Shown here: positions 142 through 43,974 of the stretch, one piece after another | Position numbering within the stretch: the stretch's first letter is position 1 | Layout: each line of letters opens with the position of its first letter | Source of the DNA: an uncultured Saprospiraceae bacterium | GTDB lineage: Bacteria; Bacteroidota; Bacteroidia; Chitinophagales; Saprospiraceae | NCBI GenBank assembly: GCA_938045585.1 | Contig: CALIAU010000010.1 | Span: forward strand, 1-64,000 | DNA length: 64,000 nt | Direction: 5' to 3' | Translations under genes and position numbers: made by a program | Notes under the pieces: generated by a model | Seen by the model: the letters and a program-made list of their open reading frames with translations, nothing else | Databases searched by the model: none | What the model was told of the DNA's origin: nothing

Positions 142-276
142 TTCTTGAATCTCGTCCCTTCATCTCTTCATCCCTTCATCTCTCCGTCTTGCTTACCATT
201 AACGATACCCAATCCTCGACACCAGTCCGAACGACGGAAACCATGAAACCATGATACCGTAATCACAAAGTGATTA
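142..276. repeat. 3'-flank structured repeat, copy 1
   Basis: CT-rich tandem units (tcatcyct type) are followed by a conserved block with two hairpins: a tight one around the GTCC/GGAC position (here gtcc-gaa-cgac, one arm mismatched) and gtaatcac-aaa-gtgattac, which overlaps the stop codon of the minus-strand gene to its right. Further copies lie at 1862-1981, 4126-4277 and 9191-9298, each at the 3' end of a T9SS cargo gene. It is probably transcribed as the mRNA 3' end and may act as terminator or stabiliser; that role is inferred. Confidence 0.75.
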
Positions 277-1698
277 CTCTATAACAATCTTCCTCACACC
301 ACTCTTCCCATTCACCGCAATCAACTTACACAGATATATCCCTTGCTGAATAGCAGACACATTCAGTGGTTCAGCAGAACTATGTTCTAATATTAACTTC
401 CCCTCTATAGAAAGAATTTCAATTCGCTTAATCGCTTCTTTTGTTTTTATTTGTAGAAGGTCATCAGCAGGAGAGGGGTAGACGGAGAATGATATTTGCT
501 CTACACTGAGTGTTGAAGAACTTATCAAATCTTCACCATCGCAATTTTCATCTATACCATTATTTGCTATTTCTGGAGCACCTAGGTGAATGTTTGGATC
601 CTCATCATTACAATCTAAAATAGTTGAAAACAAATCTTCATCCATGTCTATGCAGCCATCATTGCTGTAATTAATTAATCTAAGAGTGGTGTTTTCTATT
701 TCATAAAACGTAGACTGACCATCAAGTAGGTAGGGAGTTGAAGGATAATCACCTTCCAATAAAGTAAATTGTCCGCAATACAAACCAGCACTGCCCATAA
801 TACTTCGTTCACAATCAAGATCTCGTGGTGAACCTAAAATTAGAGCATTAGGTGGGTCCTCAGCATGTTCATTATGTGTTATACATTTATAGATGCTCGT
901 TATTGTCTGAGAAGCAAAATTTCGTCTTTCATATAAATTTCCGTAGTGCCCCATTCTATAAGTAGGAATATCATAAATCCCTGCCCATGGCTTTAGACTA
1001 ATGATAGATCCATAACCATCAACATGAACAACATCTTTATAAATAGTACCAAAATTTTGTTTAACATTTATGTAATATTCTTGATTCTGAAGTTCGGATT
1101 CAGAACTTACTGAGTCGTCACTATCGCCTTCAGGGATTAGTAAATATGTTAGAGTATAATCCTTAGTCTCAAAACTATAGCTTACAAACATTGTGTAAGT
1201 TCCATCAAAATCTCTTTTATATCTTGCTATGATTGTAGCGTTGTCTGATGTTCCTGATGCATAATACATATTGTATACTCCTAATTCGTAATACTCAGTA
1301 GTCTCTATTAAATTAAGCACTTCATCATGATAGTTTATACTATCAATAAATTCTCCGTCTCTTCCGTATCTAAATAAGTTATTAGCATTGTCATCAATGT
1401 AAATGTATTCTGCATTTACATTTAATCGTACTGGTACAGAATCCATTTCGATTGTTTTCTGCCAAAGAAACTCTCCTTTAGTAGTAAGAGCTGATAAATA
1501 TGTTTCATCAGAAGCCCCAAATTCACTTAGACTAAAAATTGTAGAATCTTGATAATTGTCAAAGAACAAGACATCATGACCAGACAATTCGGCAATCTCA
1601 TACTCTAAAATCTCATGTTCAAATATTGCATCTATTACCTGTCCCTGTAATTGAAAGGAGAGTACAAATAAGCTGAGTATGAGTATTCTTGTTTTCAT
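274..1698 (-). CDS. T9SS type A cargo protein with one degenerate MopE-like repeat
   Basis: Secreted or surface protein of 474 residues, function unknown. ATG at 1698 is preferred; a TTG two codons upstream is possible. Residues 1-20 are a signal peptide (MKTRILILSLFVLSFQLQG). Residues about 20-350 are a domain shared with the genes at 1978 and 9295 and resemble no family I recognise. One MopE-like metal-binding repeat follows (DCNDEDPNIH, then NGIDENCDG). The last 75 or so residues are a T9SS type A sorting domain (VYPSPADD, later KSGVRKIVIE). It is the shortest member of the four-gene cluster and looks like the same scaffold without the inserted repeats. Its promoter region (1699-1860) is nearly the same as that of the next gene. 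Cleavage and surface attachment after T9SS export are known for the sorting domain; binding partner unknown. Confidence 0.85.
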   Translation of the reverse strand: MKTRILILSLFVLSFQLQGQVIDAIFEHEILEYEIAELSGHDVLFFDNYQDSTIFSLSEFGASDETYLSALTTKGEFLWQKTIEMDSVPVRLNVNAEYIYIDDNANNLFRYGRDGEFIDSINYHDEVLNLIETTEYYELGVYNMYYASGTSDNATIIARYKRDFDGTYTMFVSYSFETKDYTLTYLLIPEGDSDDSVSSESELQNQEYYINVKQNFGTIYKDVVHVDGYGSIISLKPWAGIYDIPTYRMGHYGNLYERRNFASQTITSIYKCITHNEHAEDPPNALILGSPRDLDCERSIMGSAGLYCGQFTLLEGDYPSTPYLLDGQSTFYEIENTTLRLINYSNDGCIDMDEDLFSTILDCNDEDPNIHLGAPEIANNGIDENCDGEDLISSSTLSVEQISFSVYPSPADDLLQIKTKEAIKRIEILSIEGKLILEHSSAEPLNVSAIQQGIYLCKLIAVNGKSGVRKIVIE

Positions 1699-1861
1699 GT
1701 TCAATATATTAACTAGGTATCTGCTAAAAGTATGAACTTTCGTTTAAAAAGCTACTAACCTAATGTATGAGATCTAGCGTCTCTCCTTTCCCGCCGTTAT
1801 TCGTAAGATTCTCCTACGAAATAGTCTCATTCTCATCCCACTCTCATGCCATTCTGAATCG

Positions 1862-1981
1862 TTCTTGAATCTCGTCTCATCATCTTTCCGTCTTGCTTGC
1901 CATTAACGATACCCAATCCTCGACACCAGTCCGAAGGACGGAAACCATGATACCATGATGCCGTAATCACAAAGTGATTAC
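1862..1981. repeat. 3'-flank structured repeat, copy 2
   Basis: Second copy of the element at the 3' end of the cluster genes. It carries the intact tight hairpin gtcc-gaa-ggac near 1930 and the terminal hairpin gtaatcac-aaa-gtgattac that overlaps the stop codon of the gene beginning at 1978. The 160 bases to its left (1699-1860) are the leader of the preceding gene and closely match 3952-4110, so the duplication spans 3' end, spacer and 5' end. Confidence 0.75.
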
Positions 1982-3951
1982 TTTACAACCACCTTCCTCA
2001 CCCCACTCTTCCCATTCTGCATCCGCACCTTACACAAATACAATCCTGCTTGCACTGCAGAGATATTAAGTGGCGCATCTGTATACTGGCTGAGAATTAA
2101 TTTACCTTCTAAAGAAAGCAATTCTATATTCTGTATTTCATGCTGCGTTTTAATAAATAAAACATCTGTCGCTGGCGAAGGGTAGACCGTAAACTTAACT
2201 CTGTCAAGATCATAAGTAGATGATAATATCCAATCCTCCCCATCACAGTCCTCATCAATGCCATTTTCTGCAAGTTCTGCAGCATCTGGATTTATATTGG
2301 GATCGTCATCGTTACAATCATCTGCGAGTACAAAACCGTCTTGGTCGAGGTCGTCATCGAGGGTAGCGGGGTTGCAGTCATTGTCAAAGCCATCATATGG
2401 AATTTCAACTGTCAACGGATTAACCTCAGGGTTCAAGTCGTCACAATCTGTTGCATCGCCAACTCCGTCCTCGTCTAAGTCGAGTTCAGCAAAGCCATCA
2501 CAATTTTCATCTACACTATTTCCAAAAATTTCATCTGCCAAGGGAGAAATATTTGGATCTTGATCATCACAGTCGGTTAGTTCCCCAAACCCATCTAGAT
2601 CTTGGTCAAGTTCTAAAATCTTGTCACAATTTTCATCTATGTCATTGTTGAAAATTTCTGTTGCATCTGGGTGAATGGTCGGGTCAGTATCATCACAGTC
2701 GGTTAATGTAGTATATCCATCTCCATCATTATCGACTTCAGCAACACCATCGCAATTTTCATCAATGTCATTCCCTACAATCTCTTCAGCATGTGGCCCT
2801 AATTCTGGGTCTTCATCAAAGCAGTCATACGCGGATGAATATCCATCACCATCTTGATCTATGCAACTATCATTCTTGTAATCAATTACTCTTAAAGTAG
2901 TAGAATCAATTTCATAAAATGCGGCTAGCCCTTCTAGAAAAAATGGTGCAGTAGGATAACTAGCTTTTTGAAAAGTATCTTGACCACAATACAATCCTGT
3001 TTTTCCTATGATACTTCTTTCACAATCGATATCCCGCAAAGCACCTTGAAGTTCAGGAACATTACCATCATAGGTAGAAGACAACGTGCTCAGGCATTTG
3101 TAATCCAGTACAACAACGAAATCAAAAACTGTTTCAACAAGTATATCTCCAAAATGACCTATTCTATAATGCGGAGTCTCTGCACAAACAACTGGTTCAT
3201 TCCAATTTATAAAATCAATGACATTTCCATCGCCATCTATACGGATAATTGTTTGTTTATCAATAGAAGACCTGTAATAATTTCCGAACACATATTCTTG
3301 TTTTTGAATCTCATAGCTTGCTAATGAAGAACTAGTAGATTGGGGAGGAGAAGTTAGAGTATATGTTTTAGTATATTCTTTTGTGTTAAAATTATAGTTA
3401 ACAACAACATTGAATGTATTTATGTCTTCTGATGAGTAGGGGTCATCTTCTTCGTATCTATAAATGAAGTTAGCAGTATTTGAATTGCCAGTGGCATACC
3501 ACATGGAAGAATCAACAAGTTCATAATATTCTTCCTCATAATCATCGTAGGTGCGTGGACTAAGAGCAAACACTTCGTCGTAGTAATAAGTACTATCTAT
3601 AAATTCCCCAGCTCTATTATATCTAAATAAATTATGCGCATTATCATCAATGAAAATATATTCTTCATTTACATTTAAACGTCTTGGTATAGAGTCGAGG
3701 TCAATTTTTTTCTGCCACAGAAATATCCCATCAGATGTGAGGGCCGATAAAAACTTTTCATCATTTATACCTGTGGTACTTAGGGTAAAAATTGTAGAAT
3801 CTTGATAATTATCAACAAACAAGACATCATGACCAGACAATTCTACAATCTCATACTCTAAAATCTCATGTTCAAATATTGCATCTATTACCTGTCCCTG
3901 TAATTGAAAGGAGAGTACAAATAAGCTGAGTATGAGTATTCTTGTTTTCAT
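1978..3951 (-). CDS. T9SS type A cargo protein with five MopE-like metal-binding repeats
   Basis: Secreted or surface protein, 657 residues from ATG 3951. The signal peptide and about the first 50 residues are almost identical to those of the gene at 274. After the shared N-terminal domain, residues about 360-572 hold five tandem repeats of the MopE type (DxDGDG...DCDDxDPxIxPxAxEI...NxIDENCDG), rich in Asp and Asn and with paired cysteines; such repeats are associated with calcium or copper binding. Residues about 575-657 are a T9SS type A sorting domain (VYPSPATDVLFIK). The last repeat and the sorting domain are nearly identical to those of the genes at 4274 and 9295, a sign of recent duplication or gene conversion. 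Metal binding is a family-based inference; the biological role is unknown. Confidence 0.87.
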   Translation of the reverse strand: MKTRILILSLFVLSFQLQGQVIDAIFEHEILEYEIVELSGHDVLFVDNYQDSTIFTLSTTGINDEKFLSALTSDGIFLWQKKIDLDSIPRRLNVNEEYIFIDDNAHNLFRYNRAGEFIDSTYYYDEVFALSPRTYDDYEEEYYELVDSSMWYATGNSNTANFIYRYEEDDPYSSEDINTFNVVVNYNFNTKEYTKTYTLTSPPQSTSSSLASYEIQKQEYVFGNYYRSSIDKQTIIRIDGDGNVIDFINWNEPVVCAETPHYRIGHFGDILVETVFDFVVVLDYKCLSTLSSTYDGNVPELQGALRDIDCERSIIGKTGLYCGQDTFQKASYPTAPFFLEGLAAFYEIDSTTLRVIDYKNDSCIDQDGDGYSSAYDCFDEDPELGPHAEEIVGNDIDENCDGVAEVDNDGDGYTTLTDCDDTDPTIHPDATEIFNNDIDENCDKILELDQDLDGFGELTDCDDQDPNISPLADEIFGNSVDENCDGFAELDLDEDGVGDATDCDDLNPEVNPLTVEIPYDGFDNDCNPATLDDDLDQDGFVLADDCNDDDPNINPDAAELAENGIDEDCDGEDWILSSTYDLDRVKFTVYPSPATDVLFIKTQHEIQNIELLSLEGKLILSQYTDAPLNISAVQAGLYLCKVRMQNGKSGVRKVVVK

Positions 3952-4125
3952 GTTCAATATATTAAATAGGTATCTGCTAAAAGTATGAACTTTCGTTTAA
4001 AAAGCTAATAATCTAATGTCTGAGATCTAGCGTCTCTCCTTTCCCGCCGTTATTCGTACGTTTCTCCTACGAAACAGTCCCATTCTCATCCCATTCTCAT
4101 CCCACTCTCATGCCATTCTGAATCG

Positions 4126-4277
4126 TTCTTGAATCTCGTCTCTTCATCCCTTCATCTCTTCATCCCTCCATCTCTTCATCTCTTCGTCTTGCTTGCCATG
4201 AACGATACCCAATCCTCGACACCAGTCCGAAGGACGGAAACCATGAAACCATGATACCGTAATCACAAAGTGATTAC
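4126..4277. repeat. 3'-flank structured repeat, copy 3, with expanded CT-rich units
   Basis: Third copy of the cluster 3' element. The CT-rich part is longer here (several tcatcyct units between 4140 and 4190), followed by the conserved block with gtcc-gaa-ggac and the terminal gtaatcac-aaa-gtgattac hairpin over the stop codon of the gene starting at 4274. Copy-number variation in the CT units suggests slippage. Confidence 0.75.
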
Positions 4278-7200
4278 TTTACAACCACCTTCCTCACACC
4301 ACTCTTCCCATTCTGCATCCGTACCTTACACAAATAGAATCCTGCCTGTACAGTAGAGATGTTAAGTGGCGCATCTGTATCCTGGCTGAGAATTAATTTA
4401 CCTTCCAAGGAAAGCAATTCTATATTCTGAATTTCTTGCTGCGACTTAATAAATAAAACATCTGTCGCTGGCGAAGGGTAGACCGTAAACTTAACTCTGT
4501 CAAGATCATAAGTAGAAGATAATATCCAATCTTCTCCATCACAGTCCTCATCAATTCCATTTTCTGCAAGTTCTGCAGCATCTGGATTTATATTGGGATC
4601 GTCATCGTTACAATCATCTGCGAGTACAAAACCGTCTTGGTCAAGGTCGTCGTCAAGGGTAGTGGGGTTGCAGTCGTTGTCCAAGCCGTCGTAGGTGATT
4701 TCCATAGCGTCTGGATTAATGTCTGGATTAAAATCATCACAGTCTTCATGTGAGAACCAACCATCCTCGTCCATGTCCCTAACCAGTTCTGTTTTTGCAG
4801 TGTTTGTAAATATAGGCGCATTAAAGTCAAAATAAATATCTGCTCTATTTTCCAACACATCACCAACTTCTAGATAAGGCCAAGTCTTCACACGGAACGC
4901 TATATGTCCATCATTAAATTCATCTTCAAAAGGCAAGTTTATATCCTTAAAGAAAAACTCGAAAATTTTACCATCTCGTCTTACTAATTCATATGGAGCA
5001 CTGGACGAAGTAACTTCTAAGGTTCGTATGTCAAATTGTGATGTGTCAATAATATCTTTTACAACAATATCAATTGCTGATGCAGTTCCATTATTTTCAA
5101 AGCGAATTATATAATTGACATAATCACCAATCATTTCCTCTTTGAGGTAATCGCCTTCTAGGCATCGCTTGTCATTAGGGTCGTAGGAATTTACTACAGT
5201 CTGACTTAACTCATATGTGTTATTGCTAAGGTTCACATCCTGATTGCCGCAATCAACAGTCGCATCAAATCGTAGAATTTCTCCACCAAAAAGAGGGTCT
5301 GCATCATTGGGGGTATTTACTTTGAATTCTAAAAATATTTTTTTGGTTTCAAAAGGAAAAATATCAATCTGCCATTTCAAAAGATTGTCATTTTGGGTAT
5401 CTACATTTGGAGAAGCGCTTTCAAGCGTTAAAAATGTAGACTCATAACTGAGTTCCAATTCTGAACTAGTAGCAACATTGCCAATGTTTTTTATGATGAG
5501 TTCATATCTACTAGAAAAACCAGGTCGAAGTTGAGTAAGTGGTAATAGAATAACTTCAAGATCCTTATAGTCTAGCTCAGTTTTACTGACGCAAAAATCT
5601 TGTATAATACTATCTCCAGTTGGTGGAAAATTTATTTGAACATCGGTCGGGCTCACTTCAAAATAGCTTGGATTTGCAATAACCGGTTTCAGAGAATAGC
5701 TGCCTTCCGTCAATTCTATCATATACATGCTATCTTGACCAAAGGTGAAATACCCAAATTCGGTTCCATCATTTATTGTCATGTTTGGTGCAGGTATTGC
5801 CATTGCACTTTCAGTACATCCATTACCTTCTGTATCAAAATAAAATAGGCCTGATACTAAATTATTGTAATGGGAATTATTGTATTCACAATAGTTGCTT
5901 GTTTTGACTGTTTCAATTCCAAATTCTAAGAACTTAGTTTCATAACATTCTCTTTCTTCTTCATCCATGCAAATGTATTCTAAGGAGGGTGACCAAGCGA
6001 AAGTTTGATAACTGAAATCATCTAATAGTTCTGAGGCGCCATTTTTCACATACAGTTCTTTAACATCAAGGTGAATTTTCAAATCTTTAAGATTACTTAA
6101 TTCACTCAAGTCTAATACTTGTAGAGAGTCTCCTGAAATTTTTAAGGACTCAATGTTTGTGTTGTTACTTAAATCTAATTTTTCGTTTAAGTCAAAATAA
6201 TAGGAAAGATTTAGGTCTTTTAATTTTGTGTTATGACTAAGGTCAATATTTTGAATATCGTTTAAACTACAATCTAAAATTTCTAATTCAGCATTATTAC
6301 TGAGGTTTAGACTATCAATTTTTGTCCTAAAGCAGTATAGTTCTTTTAGTTTAGTATGGTTTTCTAAGCTTAAATCATTAAAATTATTGTCAAAGCCAAA
6401 AGTGTTACTACAATCAAGAAATTCTAACTCTAAATTATTGTCGAAATTTAGACCTGACAGCATATTATTACGACAATTGACATGCTTCAAAAATGGGTTA
6501 TAACTTAAATCCAAAGTGGTCAATTCTTCATCTTCGCATCTAAGGTATTCCAATTGTGGAAAGCTCTCAAGATTTAAAATTCCAATTTCATTTTCGAATA
6601 AATCTAAGTATTCTAGCTGATAGTCATCGTTGCTAGTTTGAATTCCCGTAAGTTTTGATTGGTGGCATAATAAATACTTAAGGTTTTGATTATGTGATAA
6701 GTTCAGAATTCCTGTATCTTCTCCATTGTATTCATATAGAATTAATGTATCCAATAAAGGCATTTGTTGCGGCACAAAATGTATATCAGAATCCCAAAAT
6801 TGTGAACCATGTGCTTCAAAATAACGCAGGTTCTCTAGGTGAAATACCTCTGCTTGGTTGTCTCTGGCTACAATAATCAACCGTTCTAAGTTTGTCATAT
6901 TTTGAATTAATAAACTTTCATTACTTCTGATCTCGATTTCTCGCACTTTTGGTAGGTTTTCTATAATAGTAGGGTGATCAATTTCGCCCAGAAAAATAAG
7001 TTCTTCTAGCTCCAGAAAGTCGTTTATTCGTAGGGGTTTTGCATTTAACTCAGTAAAATTCTCATTTATATGCAAGCTTTGTAGGTTTTGAAATGCCTCT
7101 AGACCGTCCAATGGAAAAGCGTTATCATTAGAAGACCTGCCAATTCTAGAAATTTCTAAATGTGTTATATCCTCAACTTCATCAAAGGACAGTCGGTTAT

Positions 7201-8878
7201 CTTTATTAATATCTAGGTTGTTTTCAAGCAATAAGGAATTCCTCACACCATCAAATGGGATATAAACATAATTTAAAATTACTTCTGAAGAACAGTCACT
7301 GTTTACCTCACAGGTATACCCTAAGCCATCTACCAAACTTTGAATTTCTACAACTTCATGATTATCGCAACAGATCATACTTAATTCTGGATTTTCATCA
7401 AGAACTATATTATGAGATGTAATATTTAGTATGGTGAGTGTTTCAAGTTGATTATTAGAACAGTCTAAATAATCCAAGTAAAGATTATTGTTTACATTCA
7501 GTTCTGTTAAGTTATTGTTAGAACATCTTAATTCCCTAAGAGAAAAAGCATCCTCAACATTTAGTTCGGAAATAGAATTGTCATAACATTCTAATTTTTG
7601 CAGATAATGTTGATTAGAAAGAGCTAGACTGGTTAAGTTATTATTAGAACAAGTTAAATTGATTAATGAGTCTAAATTGTTCAAATTTAAACTTTCAATA
7701 AGATTGTTTTGACATTCAAAGTTATACAACTTTGTACTATTAGATAAGTCTAAATTTTGAATCAAATTGTCGTTACATTCCAAACGCTCTAGCTTTATTA
7801 AGTTTGATACATTAAGGTTCTCTATTTTGTTTTCGCCTGCAAATAAGACTTTAAGATTATTTAGATTTGATACATCTAATGCACTTATTTTATTAGTATA
7901 ACAATGAAGAGTTTCTAGAACTGGGGCATTATGAAGCTCTAAGGTTTTTAGAAGATTATTATTGTTATTACAAAAAAGTGATTTTAGATTGGGTGTGTTT
8001 TCAAGTATTAAGCTGCTTAGTCTATTTCTTGAGCAATCTAAATATTCCAAGTTTTCTAAATCTCCAAAAATTATCTCTTCATACTTTGCAAGACTGCAGT
8101 CTAAATACTTTAGATTATCAGTGCTGCTAAGATCTAGTATATCATTGTTAATTCCATTTCCAGGGATAATCAGAATTTCTATTTTAGGTAAATCGAAGGT
8201 TGGATTAATCGCATCATAACCATGCATTCTTAAATACCGTAGTTCTGGACAATTAAAATGCATATCACCCTCATCATTTATTTTGCCCATGTGTAAGTAA
8301 ACAAGATTTGGTGCAGATGAAATTAAAGCTTCTAAATGATATAAGTGTTTAACTTCTCCTGTTTTAATACTATCTAATTGAGTAAAGGTGTAATTAGCTA
8401 AAGGGTTTATACTGGGATCTATTTCAACGTCTTTGTATTCTAAAGAAGCAGTTTCATTGATCTGTGCATGAACAAATTGTCGGATGGAGGGGATAGAAAA
8501 AAAATTAGCATTTGGGATTATTTTTTCTATGATATTTGGTGTAGAGAATTGAATCTTCTCAATATTTGAGATATTGTAAGAAATATATTTTAAATTTTCA
8601 TTCAAGCTTAAGTCTACATCTACTACAACAAAATCATTTATTAAGTTGAGTGAATCTAAGTTGCGAAAGTATTTTAAATATTTATTTATATCACCATCAT
8701 TTCCATACCAGCTAAGAGTTTTCACATTTAAAGATTCAAAGGTATCAATGACCCCGTTCTGATCAAGATCATACCCTGCAATCGATAACCTATTTGTGAT
8801 CCCAGGAGGTAGATTGTCTGCGTTTACGTTGAAGCAGAGCATACAGAGAATCAAAGATGTAAGGTATAGTCTGGTCAT
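4274..8878 (-). CDS. giant LRR surface protein with DUF7619-like and MopE-like repeats, T9SS cargo
   Basis: 1534 residues; ATG at 8878 follows an upstream TTG. Order: signal peptide (1-21); EF-hand-like cap (DLDQNGVIDTFESL, about 38-51); LRR block 1 to about residue 510 (LDCSNNxL-type repeats) with a cysteine-containing end; second EF-hand-like cap (DINKDNRLSFDEV, about 550) and LRR block 2 to about 980; a prealbumin/SdrD-like segment (about 1000-1100); a DUF11-like beta-sandwich; a domain starting SYDPNDKRC (about 1229-1360) that matches the DUF7619 pattern of Bacteroidota secreted proteins; two MopE repeats; T9SS type A sorting domain. Known LRR and Ig-like surface proteins act in adhesion or ligand binding; that role here is inference. 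Unlike its neighbours it lacks the shared N-terminal domain, while its last 120 residues are almost theirs. Confidence 0.88.
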   Translation of the reverse strand: MTRLYLTSLILCMLCFNVNADNLPPGITNRLSIAGYDLDQNGVIDTFESLNVKTLSWYGNDGDINKYLKYFRNLDSLNLINDFVVVDVDLSLNENLKYISYNISNIEKIQFSTPNIIEKIIPNANFFSIPSIRQFVHAQINETASLEYKDVEIDPSINPLANYTFTQLDSIKTGEVKHLYHLEALISSAPNLVYLHMGKINDEGDMHFNCPELRYLRMHGYDAINPTFDLPKIEILIIPGNGINNDILDLSSTDNLKYLDCSLAKYEEIIFGDLENLEYLDCSRNRLSSLILENTPNLKSLFCNNNNNLLKTLELHNAPVLETLHCYTNKISALDVSNLNNLKVLFAGENKIENLNVSNLIKLERLECNDNLIQNLDLSNSTKLYNFECQNNLIESLNLNNLDSLINLTCSNNNLTSLALSNQHYLQKLECYDNSISELNVEDAFSLRELRCSNNNLTELNVNNNLYLDYLDCSNNQLETLTILNITSHNIVLDENPELSMICCDNHEVVEIQSLVDGLGYTCEVNSDCSSEVILNYVYIPFDGVRNSLLLENNLDINKDNRLSFDEVEDITHLEISRIGRSSNDNAFPLDGLEAFQNLQSLHINENFTELNAKPLRINDFLELEELIFLGEIDHPTIIENLPKVREIEIRSNESLLIQNMTNLERLIIVARDNQAEVFHLENLRYFEAHGSQFWDSDIHFVPQQMPLLDTLILYEYNGEDTGILNLSHNQNLKYLLCHQSKLTGIQTSNDDYQLEYLDLFENEIGILNLESFPQLEYLRCEDEELTTLDLSYNPFLKHVNCRNNMLSGLNFDNNLELEFLDCSNTFGFDNNFNDLSLENHTKLKELYCFRTKIDSLNLSNNAELEILDCSLNDIQNIDLSHNTKLKDLNLSYYFDLNEKLDLSNNTNIESLKISGDSLQVLDLSELSNLKDLKIHLDVKELYVKNGASELLDDFSYQTFAWSPSLEYICMDEEERECYETKFLEFGIETVKTSNYCEYNNSHYNNLVSGLFYFDTEGNGCTESAMAIPAPNMTINDGTEFGYFTFGQDSMYMIELTEGSYSLKPVIANPSYFEVSPTDVQINFPPTGDSIIQDFCVSKTELDYKDLEVILLPLTQLRPGFSSRYELIIKNIGNVATSSELELSYESTFLTLESASPNVDTQNDNLLKWQIDIFPFETKKIFLEFKVNTPNDADPLFGGEILRFDATVDCGNQDVNLSNNTYELSQTVVNSYDPNDKRCLEGDYLKEEMIGDYVNYIIRFENNGTASAIDIVVKDIIDTSQFDIRTLEVTSSSAPYELVRRDGKIFEFFFKDINLPFEDEFNDGHIAFRVKTWPYLEVGDVLENRADIYFDFNAPIFTNTAKTELVRDMDEDGWFSHEDCDDFNPDINPDAMEITYDGLDNDCNPTTLDDDLDQDGFVLADDCNDDDPNINPDAAELAENGIDEDCDGEDWILSSTYDLDRVKFTVYPSPATDVLFIKSQQEIQNIELLSLEGKLILSQDTDAPLNISTVQAGFYLCKVRMQNGKSGVRKVVVK

Positions 8879-9190
8879 CAAAATAGATTGTAGTTTTTCA
8901 AATCAATTAACAGCTCAGATATAGAGCTTATGCAATTTAATACTTTGTAAGTTCTTTTAACAAGATTTTCAGTACGAGAGCGGGTAGTTTGCTATAGATG
9001 ATTGCTATAGCTTAATATTTAATTTACATATCATAGATTAATGTAGAATGGACTAGTCTATTTTTTATGTTTTTGAAGTCGAAATCTAGTTGAGCTTCGA
9101 TTCGTGATTTACTTATATAATTTTTGATTAAGGCCTTTTTAGAATTTTTATGCGTGAAACCTTTTCATTCTGATGTACTTAAGATACAGT
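8879..9190. other. AT-rich leader of the giant LRR gene
   Basis: This gene-free stretch contains no ORF with coding character. It should hold the minus-strand promoter of the gene starting at 8878, but I see no convincing TAnnTTTG element. It is not similar to the leaders of the genes at 274 and 1978, so this gene did not share in the duplication of promoter DNA. Confidence 0.5.
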
Positions 9191-9298
9191 ATCCCTTCAT
9201 CTCTCCGTCTTGCTTGCCATGAACGATACCCAATCCTCGACACCAGTCCGAAGGACGGAAACCATGAAACCATGATACCGTAATCACAAAGTGATTAC
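9191..9298. repeat. 3'-flank structured repeat, copy 4
   Basis: Fourth copy of the cluster 3' element, shortened in the CT-rich part. It keeps the gtcc-gaa-ggac hairpin near 9250 and the gtaatcac-aaa-gtgattac hairpin (9280-9298) overlapping the stop codon of the minus-strand gene to its right. Confidence 0.75.
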
Positions 9299-12200
9299 TC
9301 TATAAGAACCTTCCTCACACCACTCTTCCCATTCTGCATCCGTACCTTACACAAATACAATCCTGCCTGTACAGTAGAGATGTTAAGTGGCGCATCTGTA
9401 TCCTGGCTGAGAATTAATTTACCTTCCAAAGAAAGCAATTCTATATTCTGTATTTCTTGCTGTGTCTTAATAAATAAAACATCTGTTGCTGGCGAAGGGT
9501 AAACCGTAAACTTAACTCTGTCAAGATCATAAGTAGATGATAATATCCAATCCTCTCCATCGCAGTCCTCATCAATGCCATTTTCTGCGAGTTCTGCAGC
9601 GTCAGGATTTATATTGGGATCGTCATCGTTACAATCATCTGCGAGTACAAAACCGTCTTGGTCGAGGTCGTCGTCGAGAGTGGCGGGGTTGCAGTCATCA
9701 TCCATGCCATTGTAAGGGAATTCTCTGCATTCTGCAGTTACTTCCACGTTTGAATTAACTATTGCGCTTACCGATTCTAATTGATCTATATCTGTACAGA
9801 CAAATTCTAAGGCATCTGTATTGGTCAGCAGTAGTTCCTGTTCAATGGAGCCATTATGAATATTCAGTGTTTCTAACAGATTGCAATTCTCACAATCAAG
9901 TTTCTGAAGTAATGGCATATCACATAAACTCAAGCTGCTTATATTATTGAATCCTAGGTTTAAATCTTCAAGAAGTTCTTGATGGGATAAATTAAGAAAT
10001 TCAATTTCATTATTGTTCAGGTTTAAGCATTTTAGCCTGTTGTTTGAAGATAGGTCAATAGTTTTTAAAGTATTGTTAGATAGATCTAAAGTCTCTAATA
10101 AATCGCAGTTCAACTCCAAATTATCAAGTGAGTTTTCTGACAATTCTAAATGTCTAAGTTGAGGAGTCTCAATTAAAAATAGATTTGCTTCACCCAGTTT
10201 TGAATTGTTTATAACGAGCCGTTCAAGCGTTGTAGAACGTATCTCGACATCTTTGTCATTAAGATTGTTAGAAGATAAGTCTAAATAATTTAAATTTTCC
10301 AAACTATTTAAAACAGACAAATCAAGAAATTCGTTTAGCGGATTGTTATTAAGAATTAATGTTTCCACAGTTGAAGAATTCAGAAAATCAATACTACTTA
10401 TTCTATTATTAGATAAGTTGAGATAATCTAGCTGGCTTAGTTTTTCTAAATTGATATATTCTATGCTCGAATTTCTTAAAGATAAATATTTGAGATTAAT
10501 AAAGGCGTCTAAATAAATCAAGCTGTCTAAGGAAAAGCCTGCATTGCTTATTAAAGTGTCAACTAGTTCCGCCTCAAAACATTCAATAATATTATTTTGA
10601 TTCATATCAAATCCACTAAAGACTAGAAAATCTGATAGTCCAGAATCAGGAATGGGCAAGAGTGTAAAACCAACATTCGGGTTATTATCGTCACAGTCAT
10701 GCAAGGAACCTACGCCATCTCCATCATTATCTGACTCAGTAATTCCGTCACAGTTTTCATCTATATCATTCCCAATAACCTCACTTACTCCAGGATGGAT
10801 TTCCGCATCAGTATCATCACAATCCTCTGCTAGGATAAACCCATCCTGATCTAGATCATCATCCAGGGTATTAGGGTCACAATCATTGTCTAATCCATCA
10901 TAAATAATTTCAACAGCATCTACATTCACATTCGGATTTGTATCGTCACAGTCTGTTAGGGTAGTATAACCGTCTCCATCACTATCTATCTCAGCTATCC
11001 CATCGCAATTTTCATCTATGTCATTCCCAATAATTTCCATAGCATCACTATTAATTGCAGGGTCCGTATCATCACAGTCTTCCATAAAGCCAAAACCATC
11101 TTCATCTAGATCGTCGTCTACAGTGTCTGGGTTGCAATCATCATCGATGCCATTGTATGGAAATTCTACACAATCAGAACTTAGCTCTACGTTAGAACTT
11201 ACCTGACTTTCTACATCTTCCAATTGTTCTGGGTCTACACAGATAAACTCTAATGAATTTGGTAGGCTTAAGCTTTCTTCAGAAGAACCATTGTTAATAT
11301 TAATGGTGCTTATAGTGTTGCAATTGCTGCAATGAAATTCTTTTAAATTTGGAGTATGGCAAAGAGCAAAACCAGATTGTGCATTAAATGGATTGTTTGA
11401 TAAATCTATTTCTATTAAAGATTCTAGATTATCTAAATAGATCGAATCAATAGAATTGTTACTTAGATCTAGCAGCTCTAGACCAGAGTTAGCTGATAAA
11501 TCTATCGTACTTAGCTGATTGTGTGAAGCATCTAAGAATGATAAATTCTCAAGACTTCCTATTCCAATTAAACTATCCGTGAGCAAATCATTTCCCTCTA
11601 CATTTAGTGTTTCAAGTGTGGTGAAAGGAGATACATCAAAACTAGCTAAAAGATTAAATCTAAGCTTGAGTTCTTTTAAGTTGTTTAAAGCAGAAAGCTG
11701 AAGACTAAGCAAATCATTATACCCTAGGTCTAATAATTCTAAATTAGCTAAGTTGTTTATATTAACATCAATTAAATCATTCCCAAATAAGTCTAAGAAT
11801 TGTAAACTATCATGATCAGTAATGTTAATAGATTTTAATTTGTTGTGCCTTAAATCTAAATGAGATAAGACTGGGAAATGATCTAAGTTAATTGTGTCGA
11901 TATCATCTAGAATTGATAAATAACGAAGATTAGAAAACGATTCTAAGAGTGTTCCGTCTTGGATATCTAATTCGCGTAAAATTAAGGTATCGACAGCCTG
12001 TGCTTCATAACAGTCAATTATATTATTTTGGTTTAGATCTATGCCTATATCTAAAAGATAAGAATAGAGTTTACTACCAACTTCTGGTAGTCCTAATACA
12101 CCTACATTGGGATCAGAATCATCACAGTCGGTTAATGTTGTAAATCCATCTCCGTCATTATCGACTTCAGCAATGCCATCACAATTCTCATCTATATCAT

Positions 12201-13335
12201 TCCCTACAATCTCTTCAGCATGCGGCCCTAATTCTGGGTCTTCATCAAAACAATCATAAGCGGAAGAATATCCATCTCCATCCTGATCTATGCAACCATT
12301 ATTCTTGTAATCAATTACTCTTAATGTTGTATTGTCTATTTCGTAGAAAGCTGCTTGACCATCAAGCAAATAAGGGGTGGACGGGTATTCGCCAAAGAAA
12401 AAGCTATCTTGACCACAGTATAAGCCTGCACGTCCCATAATACTTCGTTCACAATCAATGTCTCGCGGAGAACCTAAAGTTAGTACTTCAGGTGGATCCT
12501 CAGCATGCTCATAATGTGTGATACATTTATAGGTGCTCATTATGGATTGAGAAGCGAAATTTCGTCTTTCATATAAATTTCCATAATGCCCCATTCTATA
12601 ACGAGGAATATCATAAAGTCCTGCCCATGACGTTAGACTAATGAGAGATCCATAACCATCAACATGAACAACATCTTTGTAATCACCTAAATTTTGATGA
12701 ACATCAATATAGTATCCTTGATTATGAAGTTCTTTTTCAGAACCTATCGAGGGGCTAGTATCGTATTCAGGGCTTAATAAATATGTTAGAGTATAATCCT
12801 TAGTCTCAAAATTATAGCTTACAAACATTGTGTAAGTTCCATCATAATCTCTTTTATATCGTGCTATGATTGTAGCGTTGTCTGATATTCCTGATGCATA
12901 ATACATATTGTATACTCCTAATTCGTTATAGTCATTAGTCACAATTAAATAAAGAACTTCATCATGATAGTTTATACTATCTATAAATTCCCCGTCTCTT
13001 CCGTACCTAAATAAGTTATTAGCATTGTCATCAATGTAAATGTATTCTGCATTTACATTTAATCGTACTGGAACAGAATCCATTTCGATTGTTTTCTGCC
13101 AAAGAAACTCACCTTTAGTAGTAAGAGCTGATAAATATGTTTCATCAGAAGCCCCAAATTCACTTAGACTAAAAATTGTAGAATCTTGATAGTTGTCAAA
13201 GAATAAGACCTCATGACCAGACAATTCGGCAATCTCATACTCAAAAATTTCATGTTCAAATATTGCATCTATTACCTGTCCCTGTAATTGAAAGGAGAGT
13301 GCAAATAAGCTGAGTATGAGTATTCTTGTTTTCAT
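9295..13335 (-). CDS. T9SS cargo with two LRR blocks nested inside MopE-like repeats
   Basis: 1346 residues, ATG at 13335. Order: signal peptide; the N-terminal domain shared with the genes at 274 and 1978 (to about 335); MopE repeats; LRR block 1 (about 412-723); further MopE repeats; LRR block 2 (about 888-1202); a last MopE repeat; T9SS type A sorting domain (about 1270-1346). Both LRR blocks start with an EF-hand-like cap (DLNQNNIIDCYEA, DMNQNNIIECFEA) and end with a cysteine cap (FICVD..., FVCTD...). Each interrupts a MopE repeat: DCDDSDPNV precedes block 1 and FPYNGIDDDCNP resumes after it; DCDDNNPNV and FPYNGMDDDCNP do so for block 2. The arrangement suggests LRR modules projecting from a metal-stabilised stalk (inference). 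The leader differs from those of its paralogues although the signal peptide is the same. Confidence 0.88.
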   Translation of the reverse strand: MKTRILILSLFALSFQLQGQVIDAIFEHEIFEYEIAELSGHEVLFFDNYQDSTIFSLSEFGASDETYLSALTTKGEFLWQKTIEMDSVPVRLNVNAEYIYIDDNANNLFRYGRDGEFIDSINYHDEVLYLIVTNDYNELGVYNMYYASGISDNATIIARYKRDYDGTYTMFVSYNFETKDYTLTYLLSPEYDTSPSIGSEKELHNQGYYIDVHQNLGDYKDVVHVDGYGSLISLTSWAGLYDIPRYRMGHYGNLYERRNFASQSIMSTYKCITHYEHAEDPPEVLTLGSPRDIDCERSIMGRAGLYCGQDSFFFGEYPSTPYLLDGQAAFYEIDNTTLRVIDYKNNGCIDQDGDGYSSAYDCFDEDPELGPHAEEIVGNDIDENCDGIAEVDNDGDGFTTLTDCDDSDPNVGVLGLPEVGSKLYSYLLDIGIDLNQNNIIDCYEAQAVDTLILRELDIQDGTLLESFSNLRYLSILDDIDTINLDHFPVLSHLDLRHNKLKSINITDHDSLQFLDLFGNDLIDVNINNLANLELLDLGYNDLLSLQLSALNNLKELKLRFNLLASFDVSPFTTLETLNVEGNDLLTDSLIGIGSLENLSFLDASHNQLSTIDLSANSGLELLDLSNNSIDSIYLDNLESLIEIDLSNNPFNAQSGFALCHTPNLKEFHCSNCNTISTININNGSSEESLSLPNSLEFICVDPEQLEDVESQVSSNVELSSDCVEFPYNGIDDDCNPDTVDDDLDEDGFGFMEDCDDTDPAINSDAMEIIGNDIDENCDGIAEIDSDGDGYTTLTDCDDTNPNVNVDAVEIIYDGLDNDCDPNTLDDDLDQDGFILAEDCDDTDAEIHPGVSEVIGNDIDENCDGITESDNDGDGVGSLHDCDDNNPNVGFTLLPIPDSGLSDFLVFSGFDMNQNNIIECFEAELVDTLISNAGFSLDSLIYLDAFINLKYLSLRNSSIEYINLEKLSQLDYLNLSNNRISSIDFLNSSTVETLILNNNPLNEFLDLSVLNSLENLNYLDLSSNNLNDKDVEIRSTTLERLVINNSKLGEANLFLIETPQLRHLELSENSLDNLELNCDLLETLDLSNNTLKTIDLSSNNRLKCLNLNNNEIEFLNLSHQELLEDLNLGFNNISSLSLCDMPLLQKLDCENCNLLETLNIHNGSIEQELLLTNTDALEFVCTDIDQLESVSAIVNSNVEVTAECREFPYNGMDDDCNPATLDDDLDQDGFVLADDCNDDDPNINPDAAELAENGIDEDCDGEDWILSSTYDLDRVKFTVYPSPATDVLFIKTQQEIQNIELLSLEGKLILSQDTDAPLNISTVQAGLYLCKVRMQNGKSGVRKVLIE

Positions 13336-18304: not shown

Positions 18305-19015
18305 TTATGCTCTACTTGTCTTTCCAAAAATCAGGAAGGGTAGATAGACTATTCCCATAAAGAGAAACATCACGAGTTCGCCTGATAATAGATACCAGGG
18401 CCAGGGTCCCATGTGATCTAATAGAGTAGCAGACTCTGGTGTGTGCATAGTGTACAAATAATTAGAGCCTAATAGATAATTTACTCCATGCATAAGTACA
18501 ATCAAGATATTGCTTGCGATAATAGCATGGACCATATCTTTCATCGTAACACGCAGTCCGTAGACAAATACTGCATACAGCGCGACAAGTACGGAGCCAT
18601 TGTGCAATAGCCAGTAACAGAAATAGGAAAGATTAGGAAAACCCTCTGGAAGATCTGGAGTGATAATGGCATTTAATGTGCCTGTCAGTGTAAAAAAATA
18701 GAATATTGCTAGAGCAGTTCTATTTTTGCTATACATTATAAAGGGTGCAATGACAGCTAGCAATCGACATAGATGCAGGGGTAATCCTTCCTCTATTGTA
18801 AATGTTCCCATGTGCTGTTCGTAATAGATGCGTAAAAAGACAGCGATAAAGGGTAATAAGGCTAAGGCAACACCTAAGTTGACCTGTTGTTTTTCGTTTA
18901 ATTTTTTCTTTGCATAGCCTATGATGAGAATACCTAGGCATATATAGAAAAGCACGGGATAAAGATGCTCAAGAGAATAGGCAGAAAACTGTGTGTCTTC
19001 AAATAAAAAAGACAT
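18305..19015 (-). CDS. YwaF-family (TIGR02206-like) integral membrane protein
   Basis: About 236 residues with six or more hydrophobic helices. Conserved-looking features of the YwaF/TIGR02206 family are an N-terminal FSAYSLEHLYPVLFY, LPLHLCRLLAVIAPF and a C-terminal GPWPWYLLSGE. The start is placed at ATG 19015 because the upstream extension is not hydrophobic and would overlap the divergent peptidase gene; the chosen start leaves a 64-bp shared intergenic region. Function of the family is not established. It converges on the cyclophilin gene with 30 bases between. Confidence 0.8.
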   Translation of the reverse strand: MSFLFEDTQFSAYSLEHLYPVLFYICLGILIIGYAKKKLNEKQQVNLGVALALLPFIAVFLRIYYEQHMGTFTIEEGLPLHLCRLLAVIAPFIMYSKNRTALAIFYFFTLTGTLNAIITPDLPEGFPNLSYFCYWLLHNGSVLVALYAVFVYGLRVTMKDMVHAIIASNILIVLMHGVNYLLGSNYLYTMHTPESATLLDHMGPWPWYLLSGELVMFLFMGIVYLPFLIFGKTSRA

Positions 19016-19025
19016 AGAGATGGTA

Positions 19026-19061
19026 TTGTTGCTACCTAATGTAAACAAATTTTTATATTTC
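19026..19061 (+). promoter_or_regulatory. putative promoter of the S46 peptidase gene
   Basis: TTG at 19029-19031 and TATATTTC at 19054-19061 are separated by 22 bases, close to the TTG-N19-23-TAnnTTTG layout of Bacteroidota promoters with one mismatch in the last position. The element lies in the 64-bp gap between divergent starts at 19015 and 19080. Confidence 0.4.
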
Positions 19062-19079
19062 GTGTCTAAAGCAAAAATT

Positions 19080-21269
19080 ATGAACTTGAATATTCTTAGA
19101 AAGTGCACTCTAAGCCTAGTTATTATCTGTCTCCTTAGAATTTCTGTCTTTGCAGGAGAGGGTATGTGGCTGCCTATATTTCTTAAAGCATTGAATGAGG
19201 CTGAGATGCAGTCCTTGGGGATGAAGATTACTGCAGAAGATATTTATTCTATCAATAATGGATCATTAAAAGATGCCATCGTACATTTTGGAGGATTCTG
19301 TACCTCAGAGCTTATCTCTGATGAGGGGCTTTTGTTAACCAACCATCATTGTGGTTATAGTGAAATCCAATCACACTCTAGCTTAGAAAAGAATTATTTA
19401 AGAGATGGATTTTGGGCAATGTCTAAATCCGAAGAACTTGCAAACCCAGGTTTGTTTGCCAAATTTATCGATCAGATAATAGATGTAACGGATGTTATAA
19501 CAGCAGGTGTAGAGAACGACATGACGGACAAGGAGAGGCAATCTATAATTGATAAGAACATGAATAGGTATGAGACCAGCTATAAGTTAGGTCCTTATCA
19601 AGAATTACAGGTAAGATCTTTTTATCATGGCAATCAATTTTTTGCCATCACGTCTACCACCTACCCTGATGTACGTTTAGTAGGTGCGCCGCCAGAATCT
19701 ATTGGAAAGTTTGGAGCGGATACAGATAACTGGGAATGGCCAAGACATACAGGAGACTTTGCTCTTTTTAGAATTTATGCAGGTCCCAATAACGAACCAG
19801 CGGAATATTCTGAGAATAATGTTCCTTACAAGCCTAAGCACTTTTTACCGATTTCTTTGGATGGAGTAGAAGAAGGAGACTTTACACTTGTCTTTGGGTT
19901 TCCGGGAAGAACCAATCAGTATCTACCTGCCGTAGCAGTAGAACAGTTAGTAGAAAAACAAAATCCATCGCGCATAGCTATCCGTGAAACTGCGCTGGGC
20001 ATACTCGATAAGTATATGCGTAAAGACGAGTCAGCTCGACTGCAGTATGCGTCTAAGTTTGCCCGTGTTGCAAATTATTGGAAAAAATGGATAGGGGAAA
20101 GCTCAGGACTGAAACGCACCAATGCTCTAGAGAAAAAGAGAGAAAATGAAGAACGCTTTAAGGCGGTACAGGCGAGGAAAATGATTACAAAAAAGAGTAA
20201 GGTCTTAGACGAATTTGATACCATGTACGCAGGCATCGAGGATTATACCATCGCAAGAGATTATTACAGCGAGATTACTTCTCGGAATGTAGAACTTTTA
20301 CGTGTTGCAGGTTTTGCAAATAATCTCATTAGCCGTTATGAGTCGCAGGGAGATGCGGGCTATAAGGCTTACGCACAGCGACTGAATGGTTTCTTTTCAG
20401 GTTTTTATAAAAACTACAGAGCAGATATTGATCAAGAAGTTTTTGCAGCATTGAGCGAAATGTATGTAGAAAACTTAGATCCAAAATTTATTCCGCAGTC
20501 CTTACAAAAGAAAAACACGACGATGATGGGTAAAAGCTATGCAGATCTAAGTAAAGAGATGTATAGTAACACAATTCTAACAGACGAAAAAATGATGATG
20601 AGTTTGTTGTCGGGAGACCCAGCTAGCTCTGTTGCAAAATTTAAGGAAGATAAATTTGTTCAAATGGCAGGAGAATGGAGAGCGCATTACGATAAGATAA
20701 TTTCTGCTCCTTACAATGCCTACAAAACTCAAATTGATTCTTTGCAACGCGTATATATGCAAGCGCAGATGGATGCCTTTCCAGATGAACGTTTCTACCC
20801 GGATGCCAATAGCACGATGCGGGTTACCTATGGACAGGTGGAAGGCTATTTCCCTAAGGATGGTGTGTGCTATACGCCAGTTACTCACTTAGACGGCGTC
20901 ATTGCTAAATACAAGCCAGGCGATTATGAATTTGATGTGTCAGCTAAACTCCTAGATCTCTACGAAAAAAAGGACTACGGACAATACGCTGCAAGCAACG
21001 GAAAAATTCCAGTTTGCTTCTTAGGCTCTAATCATACTACAGGGGGTAATTCGGGTAGCCCAGCAATAGATGCACATGGAAATCTGATCGGATTAAATTT
21101 TGATAGAGTATGGGAAGGTACCATGAGTGATATTAATTATGATCGTAGTATTTGCAGAAACATAATGGTAGATGCGCGATACATTTTATTTATCGTAGAT
21201 AAGTATGCAGGTGCAACGCATCTCATAGAAGAGATGAAGCTGGTACATCCAAAGAAAATGAAGGGCTAG
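19080..21269 (+). CDS. S46 family dipeptidyl-peptidase, DPP11-like
   Basis: Exported serine exopeptidase that removes dipeptides from peptide N termini, used by asaccharolytic Bacteroidota to feed on protein. ATG 19080 gives 729 residues beginning with a signal peptide (ends SVFAGEG). The chymotrypsin-like residues are visible: catalytic His90 in LLLTNHHCGY, an Asp region near DNWEWPRHTGDF, and catalytic Ser658 in TGGNSGSPAID. Arg676 in LNFDRVWEG lies exactly 18 residues after the serine, the position that is Arg in DPP11 (acidic P1 residues) and Gly in DPP7 (hydrophobic P1). An Asp/Glu preference is therefore likely (inference). A coiled-coil gene follows after 3 bases. Confidence 0.93.
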   Translation: MNLNILRKCTLSLVIICLLRISVFAGEGMWLPIFLKALNEAEMQSLGMKITAEDIYSINNGSLKDAIVHFGGFCTSELISDEGLLLTNHHCGYSEIQSHSSLEKNYLRDGFWAMSKSEELANPGLFAKFIDQIIDVTDVITAGVENDMTDKERQSIIDKNMNRYETSYKLGPYQELQVRSFYHGNQFFAITSTTYPDVRLVGAPPESIGKFGADTDNWEWPRHTGDFALFRIYAGPNNEPAEYSENNVPYKPKHFLPISLDGVEEGDFTLVFGFPGRTNQYLPAVAVEQLVEKQNPSRIAIRETALGILDKYMRKDESARLQYASKFARVANYWKKWIGESSGLKRTNALEKKRENEERFKAVQARKMITKKSKVLDEFDTMYAGIEDYTIARDYYSEITSRNVELLRVAGFANNLISRYESQGDAGYKAYAQRLNGFFSGFYKNYRADIDQEVFAALSEMYVENLDPKFIPQSLQKKNTTMMGKSYADLSKEMYSNTILTDEKMMMSLLSGDPASSVAKFKEDKFVQMAGEWRAHYDKIISAPYNAYKTQIDSLQRVYMQAQMDAFPDERFYPDANSTMRVTYGQVEGYFPKDGVCYTPVTHLDGVIAKYKPGDYEFDVSAKLLDLYEKKDYGQYAASNGKIPVCFLGSNHTTGGNSGSPAIDAHGNLIGLNFDRVWEGTMSDINYDRSICRNIMVDARYILFIVDKYAGATHLIEEMKLVHPKKMKG

Positions 21270-41628: not shown

Positions 41629-43974
41629 ATGAAGTTATTATCAACGCTATTACTTTTTGTATTAGTGACGACCTGTTCTCTACAGGCACAAAGAAATTGC
41701 TCCTCTATGGAAGTGCTAGAAATGCAGTTGCAAGAGAACCCGCAGCAAGAAGAGATAATGAGGCAGATTGAAAAATTTACTCGAGAAAGCCAGAATAATC
41801 CATCAAAAATGGTGGATGGTGTTATTACTATCCCTGTGGTATTTCACATAGTATGGAATACGAACGCGGAGAACATTAGTGATGCACAGGTGGAATCACA
41901 ATTACAGATTTTAACGGATGATTTCCGTAGATTTAATGCCGACGCAGATAACACATGGGGTCAAGCAACAGATACTGAAATTCAGTTTTGTATGGCTTCC
42001 GTAGATCCAAATGGGAATGCTACAAATGGTATTACAAGGACAAATACATCAACATCAGCGTTCAGTGCAAACGATAATATGAAGTTTAATTCTTCTGGAG
42101 GGAAGGATGCTTGGCCGGCAGCGGACTACCTTAATTTTTGGGTCTGCGATCTGAGCGGTGGGCTATTAGGATATGCACAATTTCCAGGCGGTCCTGCTAG
42201 CACAGATGGTGTTGTATGCGATTACCAATATGTGGGTAACATAGGAACAGCAACTGCTCCATTTAACTTAGGAAGAACAGGAACACACGAGGTGGGGCAC
42301 TGGTTAAACCTAAGACATATCTGGGGTGATGGTGGATGTAATGTAGATGATTTCGTATCGGACACACCTACTTCTGATGCATCTAATGTAGGATGTGCGG
42401 TAGGACATGTCTCATGTGGTTCTACAGATATGGTGCAGAATTATATGGATTACTCGGATGATGCTTGTATGAACCTATATACAGTAGGACAAAAAGATAG
42501 AATGCGCGCTTTATTTGATCCAGGAGGATTTAGAGAAAGTTTATTATCCTCTAATGGTTGTGGATCTGGCACGGGACCAACATGTACAGATGGTGTACAG
42601 AATGGAAATGAAACAGGCGTAGACTGTGGTGGACCTGATTGTGGCCCATGCGAATCTACCTGCTCAAATACAGAGGTAATCATCAGCATTACCTTAGATA
42701 ATTATCCAGAAGAAACATCTTGGACAGTACAGAATGAGAACGGAAATGTAATAGCAAGTGGTGGAACCTACGGTTCACAACCAGATGGATCTACAGTAAC
42801 AGAGACGCTATGTTTAGCAGACGGGTGCTATGATTTTACAATAAATGATTCCTTTGGTGATGGTATTTGCTGTAGCTATGGTAATGGTTCATACGCTGTT
42901 GTAGCAGCTGGAACTACAGTTGCATCAGGAGGAAATTTTGGTTCATCAGAAACAACGAATTTCTGCTTAGGAGGCGGAAGCGGGCCTACATGTACTGATG
43001 GTATTCAGAATGGAAATGAAACAGGTGTAGACTGTGGTGGCAGCTGTAGCCCTTGCCCCATACCAGGATGTACTAACCCTAGTGCGCATAACTATAATCC
43101 AAATGCAACTCAAAATGATGGTTCATGTGAAACATGTATAGACGGTGTACAAAATGGAGATGAGACAGGTGTAGACTGCGGTGGTAGCTTATGTGATCCA
43201 TGTAATAATGGTGGATGTACAGATGTGAATATAAACTTCAACAACTTTGACTCCAGTTGGGGTATATGGAATGATGGTGGTTCTGATTGTAGAAGAAGTG
43301 CAAATGATGCTGCCTATGCTTACAGTGGAAATAGATGTGTAAGACTTAGAGATAATACTTCTTCGTCTAATACTACTACAGACAACCTTAACCTAGCAGG
43401 TTTTGAAGAGGTAACAGTTGACTTTACCTACCTGGGTATAAGTATGGAAAATGGAGAGGACTTTTGGTTACAGGTTTCACTCAATGGTGGATCTACTTAC
43501 CAGACGGTAGTTGACTATAACAGTGGAACAGAGTTCCAAAATGGAGTTAGAGAATTTGAGACTGTTGTTCTTACTGGAACATTTACTTCTACGACTAGAT
43601 TCAGATTTAGATGTGATGCATCTGCAAATGGAGATAGAATATATCTTGATGATGTTGAACTTACTGGTTGTACATCTGGAGGGAATAGAGAAACGATCGG
43701 TGTAGCACACTTAAGCGAATTTGAAATTGATAAGGTCTATCCAAATCCTGCTGCAGAAAGTCTTACTCTCAGAGTTAATAATCCTATTGATGCAATGGCT
43801 AATATTAGTCTTATTGACTTGCAGGGGAAAAGAGTCTTAGGAGAAAGACTGGACGTTATTTCTGGAACGCAAGAACTGACTATAAATGTTGCTCATATAA
43901 ATACAGGAATTTACTTCCTACACTATACATCAGGTGATAAAACAGTGGTAGAAAAAATCGTGATTGCGCGATAA
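41629..43974 (+). CDS. secreted M43-family zinc metalloprotease with T9SS sorting domain
   Basis: 781 residues. Signal peptide ends LQAQ. The pro-region (to about 60) is followed by a cytophagalysin/pappalysin-type catalytic domain with His220-Glu-x-x-His224-x5-His230 (HEVGHWLNLRH) and the Met-turn MVQNYMDYSDDACMN. Downstream are three short TCTDGxQNGxETGVDCGG Cys motifs, a beta domain with a GDGICCSYGNGSY loop, one jelly-roll domain of about 140 residues (WGIWNDGGSDCRR ... DRIYLDDVELTGC) also found twice in the gene at 45978, and a T9SS type A sorting domain (KVYPNPAAESLTLRV). Extracellular protein digestion is the expected role. A terminator follows. Confidence 0.94.
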   Translation: MKLLSTLLLFVLVTTCSLQAQRNCSSMEVLEMQLQENPQQEEIMRQIEKFTRESQNNPSKMVDGVITIPVVFHIVWNTNAENISDAQVESQLQILTDDFRRFNADADNTWGQATDTEIQFCMASVDPNGNATNGITRTNTSTSAFSANDNMKFNSSGGKDAWPAADYLNFWVCDLSGGLLGYAQFPGGPASTDGVVCDYQYVGNIGTATAPFNLGRTGTHEVGHWLNLRHIWGDGGCNVDDFVSDTPTSDASNVGCAVGHVSCGSTDMVQNYMDYSDDACMNLYTVGQKDRMRALFDPGGFRESLLSSNGCGSGTGPTCTDGVQNGNETGVDCGGPDCGPCESTCSNTEVIISITLDNYPEETSWTVQNENGNVIASGGTYGSQPDGSTVTETLCLADGCYDFTINDSFGDGICCSYGNGSYAVVAAGTTVASGGNFGSSETTNFCLGGGSGPTCTDGIQNGNETGVDCGGSCSPCPIPGCTNPSAHNYNPNATQNDGSCETCIDGVQNGDETGVDCGGSLCDPCNNGGCTDVNINFNNFDSSWGIWNDGGSDCRRSANDAAYAYSGNRCVRLRDNTSSSNTTTDNLNLAGFEEVTVDFTYLGISMENGEDFWLQVSLNGGSTYQTVVDYNSGTEFQNGVREFETVVLTGTFTSTTRFRFRCDASANGDRIYLDDVELTGCTSGGNRETIGVAHLSEFEIDKVYPNPAAESLTLRVNNPIDAMANISLIDLQGKRVLGERLDVISGTQELTINVAHINTGIYFLHYTSGDKTVVEKIVIAR

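Follow-up and report, generated by a model that had tools for sequence, protein, structure and literature searches.

Two blocks of leucine-rich repeats (LRRs) interrupt a chain of MopE-type repeats, each between two halves of a repeat unit, in a 1346-residue protein encoded at 9295-13335 of the 64,000-nucleotide stretch analysed here (the window; contig CALIAU010000010.1 of an uncultured Saprospiraceae bacterium). We find it reasonably probable that the LRRs lie in line between half-unit repeats of an adhesin-like surface protein, and that the arrangement arose by one LRR insertion at the half-unit boundary followed by an internal duplication. The protein is made up of a signal peptide (assigned by eye), an N-terminal domain, MopE-type repeats, the two LRR blocks and a type IX secretion system (T9SS) tail. 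Pfam recovers PF11617 in four stretches at 99.6 bits (gathering cut-off 27), LRR_4 at 80.5 and LRR_8 at 67.3 bits (cut-offs 27), and the tail scores 38.5 bits with PF18962 (cut-off 27) and 30.3 with TIGR04183 (cut-off 23).

In what follows, A is the calcium-type loop of a repeat unit, B its DCDD part and C its PYNGxDDDC part. The first halves at the split carry DCDDSDPNV (residues 403-411) and DCDDNNPNV (880-888); an LRR block follows each, and the second halves resume after it with EFPYNGIDDDCNP from residue 724 and EFPYNGMDDDCNP from residue 1205. The B and C motifs are separated by 319 and 323 residues at the two splits, compared to 12 residues in 157 and 11 in 6 of the other 163 half-pairs, which bears out the claim of a first-pass annotation that two LRR blocks split a MopE-like repeat at one place. 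Among 147 open reading frames (ORFs) with MopE-type repeats, where start-to-start spacings of 14-23 were accepted, 607 of 626 B-C pairs are spaced at 18 residues, 17 at 17, and one each at 19 and 20. The spacing at the splits is far outside this normal range. The blocks, earlier put at about 310 residues, measure about 311-315 and replace some 5 loop residues of the repeat.

The same boundary is visible at the DNA level. On the 5' side, homology to the LRR-free tandem paralogue at 1978-3957 (81%) stops at nucleotide 1226 of the gene (codon 409), just past DCDDSDP, and on the 3' side it restarts (92%) at nucleotide 3613 (codon 1205; position 9723), the first base of EFPYNG. Within the precision of local alignment, the two outer junctions are thus breakpoints. 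Since this paralogue and the gene at 4274-8881 remain alike for 43 nucleotides further upstream of the 3' breakpoint, that breakpoint belongs to the 9295-13335 gene. The left half pairs in the alignment with unit 2 of the paralogue and the right half with its unit 4, and the outer halves thus do not match a single one of its units.

With their flanks, the two LRR blocks match each other at 253 bits and 45% identity, whereas the best other LRR, among the matches listed from 150 family genomes, reaches 65 bits and 29%. A tree of 20 LRR segments, taken from the N-cap onward, places them as sisters with support 96/97, a bootstrap value that is not yet settled. One insertion and an internal duplication therefore suffice, and two independent insertions are not needed. 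As had been described before, each block has an EF-hand-like loop close to its N-terminal end (DLNQNNIIDCYE in block 1, DMNQNNIIECFE in block 2) and closes with a Cys-bearing cap. The picture of movable modules inserting at a fixed loop holds in part: both blocks do sit at one loop, with the outer DNA breakpoints there, but independent arrivals are not supported, nor is a fixed site, as LRRs stand between whole units in the C29 protein of the same genome and in G140. A search of IMG/VR with the LRR profile gave no relative.

We classified the starts and ends of 185 MopE-type arrays in 150 ORFs, a set collected from query matches and thus biased in its frequencies. Arrays start with A-B in 134 cases, with a variant B in 25, with C in 16 and unclearly in 10, and they end with C in 153, with B in 9, with a variant in 4 and unclearly in 19. 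Two of the C starts belong to the 1346-residue protein and 14 to other ORFs; L063, L090, L123 and L047 are also C starts by eye and stand outside the count of 16. Three of the B ends (L061, L211, L213) were dropped as not MopE halves by eye, leaving 6, namely two in our protein and 4 in other ORFs. The listing for the 147 ORFs has 16 first-half and 23 second-half rows, from which we removed masked stretches, variant first halves and other Cys-rich repeats. By eye, C starts come after several unlike domains, so that chains appear to have an alternative domain boundary at the B|C junction, and halves next to an LRR need not rejoin. The earlier assumption that the halves need each other fares poorly, with C alone starting arrays in 14 other ORFs and a lone C-A-B unit flanked by other sequence in three (L063, L225 and L133). 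In these three, the C half is at protein position 326, 359 and 344, with a WIDGG-like domain before it and other C-terminal sequence after it; they share the preceding domain by eye and may thus represent one event.

In the mechanism we propose, a MopE-type chain would alternate A+B and C half-units, with beginnings and ends allowed at either; the chains would thus use two domain boundaries, of which the loop between DCDDxDPxV and EIPYNG is one. A single LRR module may have entered at the B|C boundary, and the segment containing the LRR and its flanking half-units would then have been duplicated within the gene. In L007 (C20, same genome), a unit is by eye interrupted by a non-LRR stretch of about 90 residues at a different loop, lying between A and B. 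In IMG/VR, the MopE profile found 8 loci and query A2 one; these nine (L123-L131, with L123 and L128 from one contig) include L124, where the repeats follow a subtilisin-like domain, by eye.

LRRs accompany MopE-type repeats in other proteins as well. An LRR run was found by motif in 13 of the 147 ORFs: before all units in 10, between whole units in 2 (the C29 protein and G140) and between halves in the 1346-residue protein. L061 1926-8477 (G140) encodes a 2184-residue protein in which single MopE-type units take turns with LRR-like blocks that by eye fall into two kinds. As to the suggested recurrence of the split, the B-LRR junction is spanned by no other match listed from draws of 398 family, 298 order and 395 phylum genomes, which overlap, include the genome itself and were scored for at most 10-13 candidates per genome, the family list extending to about E 1.6e-4. 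The possible junctions G140, G066, G033, G076, G394, G002, G127, G245, G330, G192 and G346 were read and are not B-LRR-C. A search of genome contigs yielded one MopE-type relative, without the split, and we found no description of LRRs combined with MopE-type repeats in the open-licence PMC literature.

In an AlphaFold2 prediction of residues 345-800, made from a 6-row alignment, most of the LRR was resolved, at model residues 100-394 (protein 444-738). The predicted local distance difference test (pLDDT) score falls below 50 at model residues 1-99 and 395-456, where the MopE-type parts and the beginning of the LRR N-cap lie; the structural check suggested earlier thus succeeded for most of the LRR and failed for the repeats. 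The model aligns to the LRRs of InlJ, InlA, leptospiral proteins and SDS22 at Z 23-25, over about 290-300 residues for the internalins, and scores Z 24.6 both to InlJ and to a Roco LRR. The InlJ match covers model residues 67-377 (protein 411-721), of which the first 33 have a pLDDT below 50. The solenoids of the matched internalin-type structures are open, with their ends far apart. If few linker residues are left, we infer that the LRRs more likely stand in line than loop out as side arms. A second prediction, of the 80-residue shifted-register fragment 724-803 (13 rows), gave a mean pLDDT of 55 without secondary structure.

Several observations weigh against the in-line arrangement and the half-unit boundary. 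The in-line geometry is weakly based, since the modelled residues at the N-side junction (411-443) have a pLDDT below 50, and neither prediction resolved the repeats. A-B starts are far commoner than C starts (134, plus 25 variant, against 16), and a single A-B-C makes up 20 complete arrays, compared to 3 for a single C-A-B; it may thus be A-B-C that folds as a unit, and pairing between the split halves could still occur. By eye, several C starts share their preceding domain, so that fewer than 14 independent events underlie them. Finally, a B end, a globular insert and a C start occur together in no other array of the 150 ORFs. In the arrangement envisaged by the first-pass annotation, the LRRs would sit in a loop of one repeat whose halves rejoin, perhaps by a DCDD-DDDC disulfide, and would project as side arms from a calcium-stiffened stalk. 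Such nesting would fit the position of both blocks at exactly one repeat loop and the orphan halves, which by eye retain the positions invariant in alignment A4. Both Cys are kept in 585 of 586 unit matches (the remaining one is spurious by eye), a retention that makes Cys co-loss uninformative as a test of pairing, and the 20 single A-B-C arrays suggest pairing within the unit. The best stretch of the poor repeat prediction (31-60) also covers a B-C pair, although lower scores are usual at chain ends. Nevertheless, the two blocks appear to go back to one duplicated event, the LRR alignment leaves little of the interval uncovered (its first part with low confidence), internalin-type solenoids have distant ends, halves are found alone elsewhere, and the arrangement does not recur among the matches listed. 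We therefore regard rejoined halves as rather unlikely.

The halves could instead be completed by the LRR itself, in a dedicated B-LRR-C cassette where Cys442 of the N-cap serves Cys404 and a C-cap Cys serves Cys734; the pairing of Cys442 with Cys404 is speculation. Among 20 LRR N-caps caught by motif, a Cys at this loop position is found only in the two of the 1346-residue protein, but these are sisters and hence one event, and L102 and L117, which lie outside the motif, have by eye a Cys there and a second one nearby. On the other side of the block, 14 of the 16 C starts, our two included, have by eye a Cys that precedes the Tyr of YNG by 5-11 residues, although the C-cap Cys may pair mutually, as in ordinary modules. 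On balance we hold such a cassette to be quite improbable. A broader proposal, which we consider equally doubtful, sees the MopE-type repeat as a two-register disulfide-and-calcium ribbon, with half-units as general sockets: either half-unit boundary could take up foreign domains, and cap cysteines of LRR modules could complete the half-units; if true, this would amount to a modular system for long surface adhesins, with the present protein as its doubly loaded case. One could also speculate that an LRR was trapped by accident, without functional meaning, when repeat units of the tandem cluster recombined unequally. The tandem paralogues with their similar 3' ends agree with this, as does a split seen in one genome only, but the reading frame is open throughout, the half-unit residues are conserved while the LRR blocks and flanks have diverged to 45-47% identity, and the split arrangement was retained after duplication, leaving an accident very improbable. 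The architecture is a real variant of known parts, and the data favour its formation by one shuffling event and a later duplication, at a boundary in use elsewhere in the repeat family.

Judged by knowledge of the families, the T9SS tail and the domain make-up suggest a protein that is exported, stays bound to the surface and serves recognition or adhesion. The product is probably carried to the surface or secreted, where two internalin-like LRR domains would stand in line with short stretches of PF11617-type repeats; these are rich in Asp, carry Cys and probably serve as calcium-binding spacers. It is plausible that the repeats bind calcium and that calcium stiffens the chain; copper binding by them has no support in our analysis. 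A profile search with the MopE-type motif gave one good PDB match, chain residues 6-43 of 2vov. According to the MopE structure report (PMC3423442), the crystal form lacks the N-terminal 46 residues, which contain the motif, and Cu(I) is bound by histidines 132 and 203.

The gene comes fourth in a tandem set (274-1704, 1978-3957, 4274-8881 and 9295-13335; Table 1), whose members all have PF18962. Its N-terminal domain (12292-13275) is common to the paralogues at 274-1704 and 1978-3957, which makes three copies in the genome; it had no match in the 59 other genomes searched, showed no similarity by hhalign to the N-terminal part of the C29 protein, and appears propeller-like by eye only. At their 3' ends and in the DNA downstream, the four genes are copies of each other (171-470, 1875-2174, 4171-4470 and 9192-9491), with 93% (4171), 92% (9192) and 74% (171) identity to the 1875 copy, which suggests gene conversion in the cluster. 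The tandem paralogues presumably differ in their recognition domains. Elsewhere in the window are a peptidase S46 (18993-21269), an M43 metallopeptidase with a T9SS tail (41629-43974) and a laminin-G-type protein with a T9SS tail (45978-49895).

Table 1 Features of the 1346-residue protein gene and of its tandem neighbours (window positions)
Feature	Residues	Position	Strand	Basis
Gene of the 1346-residue protein		9295..13335	-	ORF translation; Pfam; signal peptide by eye
N-terminal domain	~21-348	12292..13275	-	no Pfam match at E 0.01
Intact MopE-type unit 1, first half DCFDED	350-387	12175..12288	-	motif and by eye
Orphan first half 1, calcium-type loop and DCDDSDPNV	392-411	12103..12162	-	motif
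LRR block 1	412-722	11170..12102	-	Pfam, predicted structure
EF-hand-like N-cap loop in LRR block 1	433-444			
Cys-bearing C-cap in LRR block 1	697-722			
Orphan second half 1, EFPYNGIDDDCNP onward	724-741	11113..11166	-	motif
Three intact MopE-type units	742-864	10744..11112	-	Pfam and motif
Orphan first half 2, calcium-type loop and DCDDNNPNV	869-888	10672..10731	-	motif
LRR block 2, sister of block 1	889-1203	9727..10671	-	sequence comparison, tree
Orphan second half 2, EFPYNGMDDDCNP onward	1205-1222	9670..9723	-	motif, DNA alignment
Last intact MopE-type unit	1223-1260	9556..9669	-	motif
T9SS type A sorting domain	1278-1345	9301..9504	-	PF18962; TIGR04183
LRR-free tandem paralogue, five MopE-type units, used as comparison		1978..3957	-	motif, DNA alignment
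Tandem paralogue, one MopE-type unit, without LRR		274..1704	-	Pfam
Neighbour with N-terminal LRR, DUF7619, two whole MopE-type units and T9SS tail		4274..8881	-	Pfam, motif

MopE-type repeats are common in the genomes searched, yet their sole good match among solved structures is without the motif region in the crystal form. That arrays may start or stop at either half-unit offers a testable rule for cutting constructs and reading domain boundaries, and the tandem paralogues with and without LRRs provide a natural comparison. Proteins with an N-terminal LRR and later MopE-type repeats (4274-8881, L112, L113 and L111) are found in this and related genomes and share the LRR module type, with its EF-hand-like N-cap, and the repeats, the neighbour 4274-8881 sharing the T9SS tail too; in these proteins the LRR precedes all repeats, whereas here it lies inside the array at a half-unit boundary. 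The C29 protein (L234) and G140 (L061) alternate LRR blocks with MopE-type units as our protein does, but with the junction between whole units rather than halves. The predicted LRR fold resembles that of the internalins InlJ and InlA, although the protein scores 25.8 bits with NF033187 of NCBIfam (class 1 internalin InlJ; cut-off 1700), falling outside that family, and no internalin region besides the LRR was seen in it. InlJ and InlA are anchored to the Gram-positive wall, in contrast to the T9SS tail present here. MopE of Methylococcus capsulatus, finally, has one motif of the PF11617 type in its secreted form (2vov).

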